Source of the DNA: a virus
DNA: 64,000 bases
Reading direction: 5' to 3' (one strand)
Virus record (IMG/VR): IMGVR_UViG_3300025154_000061
Location: 28,260 to 92,259 of that record
Positions 21,637 through 26,356 of the stretch are shown piece by piece. The notes beneath the pieces were generated by a model. That model was not told the origin of the DNA, ran no database searches, and saw only the letters and a program-made list of their open reading frames with translations. The position numbers and the translations under genes were made by a program. How positions within the stretch are numbered: position 1 is the stretch's first letter; every line of letters starts with the position of its first letter.

Positions 21637-23459
21637 AGACCTACCCCTCGCTCTTGCGCGCCGCGAAGATCGAAATGCACGGGGCCTTTCAGCCCCGCAA
21701 GATCGACGGGCTCTTCTCGGCCGACGACGTCGAGAAGATGCGCCAAGGCGGCCGCGACGCGGGCCGCCCCTCGGGGTGGGATCCCGCGCGCTACGAGCCG
21801 ATCAAGGTGTGGAACCCCGACAGCAACGACGCGACCTGCCCGGCCGCGCTGCGCGATCGCTTCGCCGAGTGGTTCGTGATCAAGGGCTTTCACCGCCTCG
21901 CGCTGGCGAGGGCGTGCGGGATCGAGTCGCTCGACGTGATCGTCTGCGCGGGCTCGTTCGACGAGGCGGTCGCCGCGAGCAAGCGCTCGAACTTCGAGAC
22001 GCGCGCGCTTCACCCGATCGACGAAGCCGCCGTCTATCGCGATCGCCTTGAAGCGGGCGACACGCCCGAGCAGATCTCGCGCGACCTCGACCGCCGCGCG
22101 CCCGCCTACTACCGCAAGCGGGCCGCCGTCGCCTACCTGTCGCCCTCGTTGATCGCCGACGTGCGCTCGGGGCTTCTGCGCCTCGACTACGCCGAGCACG
22201 TCGGCCGCGCCGCGCAAGTCGGGGCGAGCCCGGCCGCGCAGGTCGCGATCGCCTCGGTCGCTGCCCGAACTTCCATGCGCGCCGAGCTTTTCGGGCGTTA
22301 CGTCGACAAGGTGATCGCCGCAATTGCCGCCGCGAAACCGGGCGAAGACGTGGTCGACGTCGCCGCCCGCGAGGGGAAGACGCTTGATCTCTTCCCGCCG
22401 ACGTTCGACGCGGGGGTCGCTGCCGTCGAGTCGATCACGATCGGCGAGGCTCGACGCGAGAGCGTGCGCGACGGGTGGGCGTCGATCGGGCACGCCGCCC
22501 GAGCGCAGTTGAAGCGCCTCGAAACCGAGGGGGTTCCGCCCCCGCCCGCCCTTGGAAGGTTGATCGCCATGATCGATAAGCAGCGCGCAGGGGAAGACAG
22601 GGCGGTCGCCGCGAGCGTCGGGGCAACCGACACGCGCGAAGCGCTGCCGTTGATCAAGTGGGTCGGGTCGAAGCGCACCGAGGCCCCGACGCTCGCCGCG
22701 ATCATTCGCGCACGCCTGCGGCCCGGCGCCGAATACTTCGAGCCCTTCTTCGGATCGGGCTCGGTCTTCTTCGCCGTCGCCCCCGAAACCGCCGTGATCG
22801 GCGACGTGCTCGAACCCGTGGTAAACCTTTACAAGTCGACCCGAGACGACCCCCGCGCGGTCTTCGCCGCCATGCGGGCGATCGTCGAGAAGGGGCTCGA
22901 CAAGGCGTCGTTCCTCGCCGCCCGTGACGCCGACCCGCCCGCCGATCGCTTCGAGCGCGCGGGGTGGTTTCTCTACCTGAACCGCACGGGGTTCAACGGG
23001 CTGTGGCGCACGAACAAGTCGGGCAAGCTGAACGCCCCCTTCGGCACGCCGAAGACCGTCGCCGCCTTCCCGACGCTCGATCGCTTCGAGCGCTGCGCCG
23101 AGATTCTCTCGGGCGCCGTGCTCTACTGCGGCGACTACTCGAAGGGCGTCGCCCGCGCCAAGGCTGGCGACGTGGTCTTCGCCGACCCGCCCTACCCCGG
23201 CACGTTCAGCGACTACGCCAAGCGCACGGGGCCGATCGACTACGCCAAGCTCGCCGCCGACCTGCGCGCCGCGCACGATCGGGGGGCGCACGTCGTGACG
23301 ACCCTCGCCGCGAGCGAAGACCTCGACGCGCTCTTCTCGCCTTGGTGCTACCGCGTCGACCTTTCGCGCACCTCGAACGTCTCTTGCAAGGCGTCGACGA
23401 GGGGCGAGTTCAAGCAGGTCGTTTGGTGCTCGCACGAGCGAGAGGGGGCCGCCGAATGA
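21633..23459 (+). CDS. ParB-like nuclease/DNA-binding domain fused to Dam-type adenine methyltransferase
   Basis: 608 residues. The N-terminal half has ParB-like order: FHRLALARACG with LDVIVC, then an HTH-bearing region (DEAAVYRDRLEAGDTPEQISRDLD). The C-terminal half is a D12-class N6-adenine methyltransferase: IKWVGSKR (about 341-348), EPFFGSGSVFF (about 370-380, SAM site) and catalytic DPPYPG (about 517-522). The probable target is GATC-like DNA, protecting phage DNA or marking it. Start GTG 21633 overlaps the previous stop; stop overlaps sbcC. Fusion of both domains in one chain is uncommon but known in phages. Confidence 0.82.
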   Translation: MKTYPSLLRAAKIEMHGAFQPRKIDGLFSADDVEKMRQGGRDAGRPSGWDPARYEPIKVWNPDSNDATCPAALRDRFAEWFVIKGFHRLALARACGIESLDVIVCAGSFDEAVAASKRSNFETRALHPIDEAAVYRDRLEAGDTPEQISRDLDRRAPAYYRKRAAVAYLSPSLIADVRSGLLRLDYAEHVGRAAQVGASPAAQVAIASVAARTSMRAELFGRYVDKVIAAIAAAKPGEDVVDVAAREGKTLDLFPPTFDAGVAAVESITIGEARRESVRDGWASIGHAARAQLKRLETEGVPPPPALGRLIAMIDKQRAGEDRAVAASVGATDTREALPLIKWVGSKRTEAPTLAAIIRARLRPGAEYFEPFFGSGSVFFAVAPETAVIGDVLEPVVNLYKSTRDDPRAVFAAMRAIVEKGLDKASFLAARDADPPADRFERAGWFLYLNRTGFNGLWRTNKSGKLNAPFGTPKTVAAFPTLDRFERCAEILSGAVLYCGDYSKGVARAKAGDVVFADPPYPGTFSDYAKRTGPIDYAKLAADLRAAHDRGAHVVTTLAASEDLDALFSPWCYRVDLSRTSNVSCKASTRGEFKQVVWCSHEREGAAE

Positions 23460-26356
23460 AGATCGAACGCGTGCGCCTCGACGGGATCACCCGCTACCGC
23501 AGGCCGATCGAACTCGCGCTTCCCGAGGGGGTCGTCGCGATCGTCGGGCCGAACGGGTGCCTACAGGGCGACGTAGAGATTTACGATCCAACGGACGGAT
23601 CGTCCGTCGCCGTTCGCGATCGTTACAATCGGGGCGTGCCGTTTCACGTATGGGCGTTAGGGCCGCATGGGGTCGTAACGACGGCCGCAATGCCCCCTTG
23701 CAAGTATCCGCCCGCTCAAATGCTGCGATTGCGGTTCGCGGACGGGAAGTCGATTACGGTGACTCCGGCGCACAAGTTTTGGAGCGGCGCCGAGTGGTTG
23801 ACAGCTTCCGCCATTTTTCAAGCCCTGCGAGAGAACGGGCGCGTCCGGCTGCCGTCCAGTTCGGCCGCTTACCTGTCAACTCATGCCGAAGATGATCTGC
23901 GTTGGTGCGAAATAATTCCAGATTCTCCGGGCGGTTGTCGGCGTGTTCCCCGTTGCGATGATGCACGACTTCTTCCGGCAGAAGTCGGCGCCCGAGAATC
24001 CGTTCCATTACGAGGCGATGCTCCCGAACTAGCCCTTTGCGATCTGCGTCGGGGTGATACGGAAGCCGTAGAAGAATGTAGCCGTCGGCGTCAATCACCC
24101 GACCGCCGCGCCACGACCCATTGCGAGCGCCCGGCGCTCCCCGGTCACGAATCGCTCCTCCGACGTTGCGGATTGCCTTCGCGATCCGGCTTTGATTCGA
24201 GTGCATTGACCGGGCGATCTCCGCGAGACTCGCCCCGCTCTCGTAGCGTGCAAGAGCTTCGCGCCTCCGCTCATCCGTCCAATTCTGACGCATCGACGCC
24301 CCCCGGGGTTATGGTTCCTTTCGAAACATACCCCGCGATTGACCCGTCGACAATCGAAATTGTCGCGGTTGGCGAGCTACCGTGCGAGCCTTACTACGAC
24401 TTCCACGTCCCGGTTCACCTAAACTATTGGGCCGCCGGGGTCTGGAATCACAACTCCGGCAAGACGACGCTTCTCGAATGCCTCGGCCCGGCCGTCTTCT
24501 TCCGCGAGTTGCCGACCCGCGAGCCCTCGGGAATCCAGAATTGGATCGGGCCGAAGGGCGGCCGGATCGAACTCGACTTCGTGCGGGGCTCGCGCCGCTA
24601 CGAAGCGATCGTCGAGATCGACGGGTCGGGCAGGCAAGCCGCGTTCCTGACGTGCGACGGGGTCAAGCTCGCGTCGGGCAAGGTGCGCGACTACGACGTC
24701 GAGATCGCGAAGGTGGTCGGCAACCGCGACGCCTTCTACGCCTCGGTCTTCGGGATGCAGGGCGGGGGCGGGCGCTTCGAGTCGCTCGAAGTCACCGACC
24801 GCAAGGCGATCTTTCGCTACTACCTCGGGCTCGACCGGGTCGACAAGGCGCACCGCGCCGCCCGCGCCCGCCTCGAAGCGCTCGACGTCTCGAAGATCGC
24901 CACGCTGCGCGCCGATCTCGAAGCCTGCGAGACGGCGATCGCCGAGGCCGAGGCCGACGTCAAGGCTGCGGTCTTCGCGGCCGACGCCGAGCGCGAGGTA
25001 AGTCGCAAGGCGCGCGCCAAGCTCGACGACCTGCTCGCGCTCTCGTCGACGGCCGAACTCGTCGACGCCTACGACACCGCTCTCGACGCGGCGGGCGAGG
25101 CGCAAGACGCGCTCACCGCCCTACCTGCCCGCCCGGCCGCCGCGCCTGCGCCGACGGGCGACAAGGGCGCCGCTACGATCGCCTTAGAGGCCGCGAGGAA
25201 GAAGAACGAGGGCTACCTCGTCAAGAGCGCCGAGATCGCCCGCGTCGGCTCTTCGCTGGCGACGGCGAACGCCGACCTCGTGCGGGCGAACAAGGCGACC
25301 GAGCGTCTCGCGCGCGTGCCGTGCAAGGGCGAGGGCGCCTTCGCCGGGTGCGAGTTGCTGCGCGACGCGATCGCCGCGCGCGAATCGATCGCTGCGCTGC
25401 GCGACGTGTGCGCCAAGGCCGAGCAGGCGCACGAGACGTTGAAGGTCGAGGTCGCCGCGCTCGTCGTGCCCCGCGAGAAGCTCGACGCACTGCGCGCCAA
25501 GGTCGCCGAGGCCGAGCGGGAACTTGAAGCGCACCGCCTCGGGGCCGAGCGCTGCCGCGCCTACGACGAGAAGCGCGATCGACTGAACCGTGCGCTCGCT
25601 GACGCGAAGAGGCAGGCCGCCGCGCTGCGTGCCCGGCTGCCGAAGGTGATCGACGACGTGCCGTCGCTGGCGCAGATCGACGCCGCTCGCGAGGCGAGCG
25701 CCGCCGCGAGTGCCGCCTACGAGAAGGCGATCCGCGAGCACGAGGCGGGCGTCGCTGCGTTCGGCGGCGCCCTCGATCGCAAGGCCGGGATCGAGAAGGC
25801 CCTCGCCGCCGAGGAAGCTCGCGCCGCCGACGCGCCCGCGCTCGAACTGCTCGCCCGCGCTCTCGGGGCGAACGGGATCCAAGCCTACGAGATCGACGCC
25901 GCAGGCCCCCGCGTCTCGGCCCTCGCGAACTCGCTCTTGCATGCCTGCTACGGGCCGCGCTTCGACGTCGAGGTGCGCACGACGAAGGCGTTGAAGAGTG
26001 GCAAGGGCGAGAAGGAAGACTTCGACGTCGTCGTCTACGACAACGACAGCGGGATCGAGAACACGATCGCCGGGCTGTCGGGGGGCGAGAAGGTGATCGT
26101 CGACGAGGCGCTTCGGCTGTCGCTCGTGATCTTCGCCGACGAGCGCCTCTCGGTTCCGTTCCGGGTGCTCTACCGCGACGAGACGATCGGCGGGCTCACC
26201 CGGGACAACCGCGCCGCCTATGCGCGAATGCTTCACCGCGCCCGCGATCTCGGCGACTTCGGGCAGATCTTCCAAGTGACCCACGACGAAGAGTCGAGCG
26301 AGAGCGCCGATGTCGTGATCGCGATCGACGAGTCGGGCAATGTCTCGGTCGCATGA
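23456..26356 (+). CDS. sbcC: SbcC/Rad50-like ATPase, split by an intein in the P-loop
   Basis: The primary product is 966 residues including a 299-residue intein; the spliced protein would be 667. N-extein: 34 residues ending GPNG. C-extein begins Ser-Gly-Lys-Thr-Thr, restoring GPNGSGKTT, the Walker A motif. Long coiled coils follow, with a zinc-hook-like CKGEGAFAGC, then LSGGEK signature and the Walker B region near the C-terminus (FRVLYRDE). It pairs with SbcD. ATP binding is impossible before splicing. ATG overlaps the dam stop (ATGA). Confidence 0.92.
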   Translation: MKIERVRLDGITRYRRPIELALPEGVVAIVGPNGCLQGDVEIYDPTDGSSVAVRDRYNRGVPFHVWALGPHGVVTTAAMPPCKYPPAQMLRLRFADGKSITVTPAHKFWSGAEWLTASAIFQALRENGRVRLPSSSAAYLSTHAEDDLRWCEIIPDSPGGCRRVPRCDDARLLPAEVGARESVPLRGDAPELALCDLRRGDTEAVEECSRRRQSPDRRATTHCERPALPGHESLLRRCGLPSRSGFDSSALTGRSPRDSPRSRSVQELRASAHPSNSDASTPPGVMVPFETYPAIDPSTIEIVAVGELPCEPYYDFHVPVHLNYWAAGVWNHNSGKTTLLECLGPAVFFRELPTREPSGIQNWIGPKGGRIELDFVRGSRRYEAIVEIDGSGRQAAFLTCDGVKLASGKVRDYDVEIAKVVGNRDAFYASVFGMQGGGGRFESLEVTDRKAIFRYYLGLDRVDKAHRAARARLEALDVSKIATLRADLEACETAIAEAEADVKAAVFAADAEREVSRKARAKLDDLLALSSTAELVDAYDTALDAAGEAQDALTALPARPAAAPAPTGDKGAATIALEAARKKNEGYLVKSAEIARVGSSLATANADLVRANKATERLARVPCKGEGAFAGCELLRDAIAARESIAALRDVCAKAEQAHETLKVEVAALVVPREKLDALRAKVAEAERELEAHRLGAERCRAYDEKRDRLNRALADAKRQAAALRARLPKVIDDVPSLAQIDAAREASAAASAAYEKAIREHEAGVAAFGGALDRKAGIEKALAAEEARAADAPALELLARALGANGIQAYEIDAAGPRVSALANSLLHACYGPRFDVEVRTTKALKSGKGEKEDFDVVVYDNDSGIENTIAGLSGGEKVIVDEALRLSLVIFADERLSVPFRVLYRDETIGGLTRDNRAAYARMLHRARDLGDFGQIFQVTHDEESSESADVVIAIDESGNVSVA
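23558..24454 (+). mobile_element. Complete 299-codon intein with antisense endonuclease gene
   Basis: Starts with Cys1 (CLQGDVEIYD, block A) at 23558 and ends with His-Asn at 24452-24454, followed by Ser+1. Block B is TVTPAHKFW (23756-23782); block F includes YYDFHVPVHL (about 24398-24427) and block G ends VWNHN. The sense frame stays open through the central part, where the opposite strand encodes an HNH endonuclease. A start for a separate C-half exists at ATG 24311 after GGGG, so split expression is also possible. G+C is lower than in the exteins. Confidence 0.9.
23754..24293 (-). CDS. HNH homing endonuclease, antisense inside the sbcC intein
   Basis: 179 residues on the minus strand. An N-terminal HTH segment (ALARYESGASLAEIARSM) is followed by the HNH_3-type core: REHRLVMERILGRRL, EEVVHHRNG and DNRPENLELF. 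The catalytic His-His-Asn set is present. Its final codons run antisense across the block B codons (TPAH) of the intein, and its TAA is at 23754-23756. It would nick or cut the intein-less sbcC allele. No clear promoter seen. Confidence 0.85.
   Translation of the reverse strand: MRQNWTDERRREALARYESGASLAEIARSMHSNQSRIAKAIRNVGGAIRDRGAPGARNGSWRGGRVIDADGYILLRLPYHPDADRKGLVREHRLVMERILGRRLLPEEVVHHRNGEHADNRPENLELFRTNADHLRHELTGKRPNWTAAGRARSLAGLEKWRKLSTTRRRSKTCAPESP

Follow-up and report, generated by a model that had tools for sequence, protein, structure and literature searches.

The sbcC-like gene of the window (the whole 64 kb stretch analysed, being the final part of a 92,259 bp virus contig) is interrupted by an intein that has an HNH endonuclease gene on the opposite DNA strand. 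The usual view is that an intein holds its endonuclease in the splicing frame. The insert is very probably a cis-splicing mobile mini-intein with its homing gene placed backwards at the canonical insertion site and with the open reverse reading of this gene as its linker. It probably also represents a widespread undescribed class of phage P-loop inteins with an antisense homing gene, in which about 480 bp code both ways in one phase, stop avoidance on one strand shapes the protein of the other strand, and the homing gene is free in its expression timing. At the level of sequence, the design can be followed through both reading frames, a family of relatives, a fixed phase, stop avoidance, loss forms, a split derivative and an empty allele. 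The gene and the insert comprise the following features.

23456-26356, + strand: SbcC-like gene (phrog_77, E 1e-35), Walker A motif split as GPNG/C...WNHN/SGKT
23456-23557, + strand: SbcC N-extein, 34 aa, ending with GPNG, the first half of Walker A (translation; phrog_77 on the C part)
23558-23854, + strand: intein N-terminal splicing part, residues 1-99, with Cys1 and block B TPAH at 23762-23773 (TIGR01445, pLDDT, profile matches to PDB inteins)
23855-24349, + strand: sense-frame linker, residues about 100-264, the HNH gene read on its complementary strand (no stops, no homology, disorder predicted)
24350-24454, + strand: intein C-terminal splicing part with block F VGELPCEPYYDFHVPV and block G WNHN (PF14890 to the profile end, home-made C profile, pLDDT)
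24455-26356, + strand: SbcC C-extein, beginning with SGKTTL, the second half of Walker A (phrog_77, E 1e-35)
23754-24293, - strand: antisense HNH endonuclease gene, 179 aa plus stop (HNH_3, phrog_20891, family-invariant residues, model)
23877-24035, - strand: HNH catalytic core, residues 87-139 (EHRLVME, EVVHHRNG, DNRPENL, H134; alignment invariants)
24162-24278, - strand: HNH N-terminal helix-turn-helix, residues 6-44, putative DNA-binding part (modelled helices 7-18, 23-29, 34-43)

Translation of 23558-24454 gives 299 residues with zero stops, including Cys1, TPAH (residue 72 being the His), His298-Asn299 and Ser+1, as the preliminary description had stated for the splicing blocks and the open frame. 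TIGR01445 (intein_Nterm) matches intein residues 1-74 above the cut-off (E 2.6e-5), and PF14890 (Intein_splicing) matches residues 53-299 with E 0.009, which is below the cut-off for the single window sequence. The splicing-domain profile matches DnaB and RecA inteins in the PDB with E down to 1.8e-24. C1, H72, H298 and N299 are invariant across 37 family members, and Ser+1 is present. Removal of the intein restores the Walker A motif GPNGSGKT. Judged by the N-terminal Cys, TxxH, His-Asn, the +1 residue and HINT homology, the insert can be assigned to the class-1-type inteins. AlphaFold2 predicted the splicing halves (residues 1-99 and 265-299) at about 97 pLDDT, the N part lying mostly at 92-98 and the final 30 residues at 94-98; pLDDT was <50 for most of residues 107-261, so this section is predicted to be disordered. 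The model resembles the NpuDnaB and Mtu RecA inteins in fold (TMt 0.80 for NpuDnaB). A group I intron was considered as another reading of the insert and was rejected, since an Rfam search of 23400-24600 gave no match up to E 1.

The antisense ORF matches HNH_3 (PF13392) above the cut-off (E 4.2e-8) and phrog_20891 (E 6.7e-27), which bears out the convincing core attributed to it beforehand. Every family-invariant HNH residue is retained in the window copy in the alignment, HNH_3 was matched by 39/39 family members examined, and helix-turn-helix profiles match some of them. The window HNH model has a pLDDT of 92 with the helix-turn-helix in front, and its nearest fold, by a weak match, is the homing endonuclease I-HmuI. 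The last HNH codons cover TPAH at 23762-23773, so that the 3' end of the gene does overlap the block B codons in antisense. The database search proposed in the preliminary description separated the two strands as foreseen: the HNH was matched and the sense middle was not. Had the sense middle resembled an endonuclease, that description would have been contradicted; no such homology appeared in any of the 37 members, of which 33 matched Intein_splicing, with one weak PT-HINT match in addition. Shine-Dalgarno-like matches precede the antisense HNH starts in 49% of cases in the family vs 25% in shuffles; the window HNH start is preceded by a weak one only (GGGGGG), and a promoter scan found no sigma-70-like promoter for the antisense HNH. 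The HNH gene would be expressed from its own message.

Scanning of viral contigs with the window HNH alone gave 19 loci. Among the early loci, several terminases and one helicase showed the same arrangement, in every case with an extended open frame opposite the HNH, at a GC content down to 0.42. For a second scan of viral contigs, an HNH alignment served as the query and the best 80 of 581 relatives were taken, the N and C parts of inteins being recognised by home-made profiles. Among these best 80, an intein N part lay opposite the HNH in 78 and a C part as well in 77, both parts sharing one ORF everywhere except in locus L036 and in contig-end cases. Together with the earlier loci, the HNH-seeded set amounted to 86, or 73 once near-duplicates were removed. 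An unbiased scan was seeded only with the splicing domain at the terminase site and gave 80 loci, of which 74 had an antisense HNH, 5 were HNH-less mini-inteins and 1 was cut by an early contig end; a sense-strand (in-frame) HNH occurred in 0/80. An intein with an in-frame endonuclease domain was rejected as a candidate, since no sense-frame endonuclease was present in the 37 members or in these 80 loci. Altogether, well over a hundred phage inserts of the antisense-HNH design were found. Scans of viral contigs in which the complete intein or the complete SbcC was the seed gave almost no loci because the linker is unconserved, the SbcC seed still yielding a related terminase intein; HNH- and block-seeded scans succeeded.

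Insertion sites are Walker A motifs of the form G../C...HN/[STC]GK[ST] or GK/C...HN/T. Host genes code for terminases (many members), helicases, AAA ATPases, SbcC and others, with a P-loop in every case. The HNH is antisense in a single fixed phase in all 86 HNH-seeded loci and in the 74 intein-seeded antisense loci. The constant phase argues for one origin of the antisense-HNH inteins, because another antisense phase would be about equally permissive (4.7 vs 4.5 stops). Judging by the contigs, the family looks phage-borne, since scanning of genome contigs with P0002 gave a single weak locus; such a scan detects close relatives only. In the HNH tree, which is weak, nested and free-standing HNHs were not cleanly separated. 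At L065:3001-3294, an HNH was observed with no intein found around it, and its phase-1 antisense frame has 0 stops over 155 codons (3.2 expected). This HNH is perhaps a recent departure from an intein.

The sense frame opposite the HNH is stop-free in 71/73 non-redundant loci. Synonymous shuffles of each HNH gene predicted 327 stops for the 73 loci, and 8 were observed, all in two loci, L036 and L054; the summed log10 P is -188, but the stop tests treat loci as independent, so that P values are not literal and the argument lies in the contrast with controls. Free-standing HNH relatives serve as such a control and contained 62 stops vs 73 expected, with an open frame in 1/18. The window alone has 3.2 stops expected, and its open frame has P = 0.01 given the HNH protein and codon usage.

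The possibility that only one of the two genes is real, the antisense HNH or the open sense frame being a by-product of high GC, could be raised because the window is GC-rich and has many long chance ORFs. However, the same design is seen at GC 0.35-0.45, the remaining two antisense frames average 4.7 and 7.6 stops, and the HNH_3 and Intein_splicing matches cover nearly all members on their respective strands. Together with the codon-position pattern given below, the stop statistics exclude it at the family level, and its probability is practically nil.

In the fixed phase, a sense stop arises only if an HNH codon nTT, nTC or nCT precedes an A-initial codon. Phe followed by M/I/T/N/K occurs in 0/191 cases in nested HNHs and in 6/21 in free HNHs; therefore, the stop constraint reaches the HNH protein sequence. 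When relatives are compared, the overlap has changed most at HNH codon position 3, which is sense codon position 2, and identity in example pairs is 84% vs 67% and 0.65 vs 0.27 for the HNH and the sense reading, respectively. The HNH identity well above the sense identity and the changes at HNH position 3 indicate that the HNH is the constrained protein of the overlap and that the sense linker is free except for staying open.

Separate translation of IntN and IntC around a free-standing HNH, as in a split intein or fractured gene with an accidentally open frame, would be compatible with the in-frame ATG at 24312 that begins the C part in the window. Real splitting does occur in the family. At L036 (an AAA ATPase; L036:200-1310, intein strand), the N half ends at a stop and the C half has its own ATG behind a Shine-Dalgarno sequence, AAAGAGG; at L054, a stop directly follows the N half, and the contig ends before the C half. 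By its gene structure, L036 seems to have arisen naturally as a split derivative, and L054 is likely a split form too. L036 shows what the linker region becomes once a continuous frame is unneeded: it has 4 stops vs 3.8 expected from shuffles. Stops at shuffle level where the constraint is gone mean that the open frame elsewhere is selected, and the lack of stops in the linker is attributed to selection at the family level. With this, the deficit of stops across the other loci and the low P for the window, separate translation is very unlikely for the window copy. The split with a start at 24311, which the preliminary description had set against its own reading, is not supported; its own reading, in which the intein is continuous, splices in cis and has an antisense HNH, is supported.

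Forms with a reduced or missing HNH are also present. Mini-inteins at the same terminase site are 132-158 aa long (HNH-less, n=5), and L128, counted among the 74 antisense loci, retains an HNH remnant of 28 codons and is an apparent loss intermediate. L128, L140, L152, L172, L177 and L189 were recorded as HNH-less or HNH-remnant mini-inteins; they probably represent steps of HNH loss within the homing cycle and are candidate compact splicing tools.

Among cultured phages, Pseudoalteromonas phage PHS3 (L121/L124) has a 300-codon antisense-HNH intein in its terminase, and in its record the terminase is annotated as truncated and the HNH as a gene of its own. Phage AL of the same host species has a terminase without the intein. 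The two differ by a 900 nt insert that is exact at GGAG/SGKS, and the predicted spliced PHS3 TerL is 98.8% identical to that of AL over 408 aa with no gaps. We infer that the PHS3 intein splices, because a viable phage has the P-loop of its terminase interrupted. Identity between PHS3 and AL peaks at the insertion (>=99% over about 600 bp), which fits co-conversion, although similar peaks are present elsewhere in these mosaic genomes. A related terminase intein was found in seven Pectobacterium phages and in Dickeya phage Setonix; in Pectobacterium phage Koroua (L116), the intein-bearing terminase large subunit is annotated as a 754-aa hypothetical protein. These eight Pectobacterium/Dickeya phages and PHS3 were the only annotated phages with the antisense-HNH intein among the matches examined. 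For the HNH matches in phiH, GAL1, Comrade, Jabbawokkie, ctXG6705 and a Staphylococcus phage, the home-made profiles revealed no intein of this type.

Terminases are known to have HNH proteins encoded next to them. The HNH could thus be a passenger or packaging helper for which the intein linker is a safe harbour, with no role in intein homing; many members do reside in terminase genes, and HNH-less mini-inteins exist. This is improbable, given that SbcC, helicases and AAA ATPases contain the element as well, with a P-loop as its site every time, that an exact empty allele exists in phage AL, and that HNH and HINT divergence are correlated (r = 0.47).

For the mobile cis-splicing element, the following course of events is proposed. 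A DnaB/RecA-type mobile mini-intein would have inserted into the Walker A motif of SbcC, with the homing gene at the place where an intein endonuclease usually lies, flanked by the N and C halves, yet encoded on the other strand. The whole element would be translated as one precursor polypeptide, in which the splicing halves associate into one fold, leaving the disordered linker as an external loop, and the intein excises itself in cis; the window copy would be expected to splice in this way. A separate antisense message would direct synthesis of the HNH protein, which would presumably cut intein-free P-loop genes, and repair would copy the whole element. The reverse HNH reading would provide a disordered linker of ~165 residues whose sole duty is to contain no stop codon, and this duty would fix the frame phase and bar Phe followed by Met/Ile/Thr/Asn/Lys in the HNH protein. 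A possible gain, which is conjecture, is that the timing and dose of the nuclease become independent of the host gene.

Fractured genes with split inteins were reportedly described by Dassa et al. in 2009, the endonuclease gene lying between the intein halves and the host parts being translated separately. The window intein likewise has the endonuclease between the halves, but as one ORF, the exceptions in the family being L036 and probably L054. Class 1 inteins with an in-frame endonuclease (PI-SceI, PI-PfuI; the DnaB and RecA mini-inteins being relatives for the splicing domain) have in common with it the HINT domain, Cys1, TxxH, His-Asn and Ser/Thr/Cys+1. The endonuclease position between the N and C splicing parts is highly conserved in inteins (PMC6801210), and the antisense-HNH inteins share this position. 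Unlike in class 1 inteins, the endonuclease here is on the opposite strand and outside the spliced product, a separate transcript would be required for it, and the linker is without a domain. The ShiLan domain has its HNH in the third frame of the same transcript and strand, without a splicing domain, in a non-essential methylase (Arsenault, Gosselin, Gogarten 2025, PMC11855218), and the insertion is thought to remain in the protein (PMC11855218). The ShiLan domain and the Pacc40 insertion are likewise phage insertions with an HNH hidden in another frame, an open host frame and a disordered host-frame reading (PMC11855218). An insertion of the ShiLan type was ruled out here, as the HNH is antisense and a splicing domain is present. 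Porphyra group I introns carry homing genes on the complementary strand (PMC2585584) and are similar in this respect, but, being RNA elements, they do not have to keep both strands open. The literature searched contains no report of an intein with its endonuclease on the antisense strand; Gorbalenya 1998 ('Non-canonical inteins'), Dassa 2009 and Gosselin 2025 (bioRxiv 10.1101/2025.01.02.630785, '...Non-Canonical Architecture'), which lie outside the searchable text, could contain relatives, and the design is likely new to the literature.

The antisense-HNH inteins would represent a third route of coupling splicing with homing, besides fusion and splitting. They offer natural antisense dual coding with a simple measurable constraint, i.e., no stops on one strand and function on the other, for which matched natural controls are at hand in free-standing HNHs, split derivatives and mini-inteins. 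The family supplies mini-inteins with long tolerant linkers and accounts for terminase genes databased as truncated or hypothetical (PHS3, Pectobacterium phages). PHS3 and AL are a cultured phage pair with and without the element and are suited to a direct homing test.

The window contains a second intein with a detached endonuclease, located at the DEAH motif of a helicase, its sense ORF extending from 904 bases 5' of the window to 1498 (L034:3356-5758). It contains one further feature.

51-671, + strand: DUF559/MTES_1575-type nuclease ORF inside the helicase intein (E 4e-12; shifted frame, same strand)

The view that this genome has two inteins with endonucleases detached in two different ways thus holds, with a same-strand, shifted-frame nuclease in the helicase intein and an antisense HNH in the sbcC intein. 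Seven relatives of the helicase intein have the nuclease at the identical frame offset and 0 intein-frame stops vs 7-12 expected, even at GC 0.29-0.41. The helicase-type DUF559 inteins make up a second family of dual-coding inteins. In L214/L215, the nuclease is in frame with the intein.
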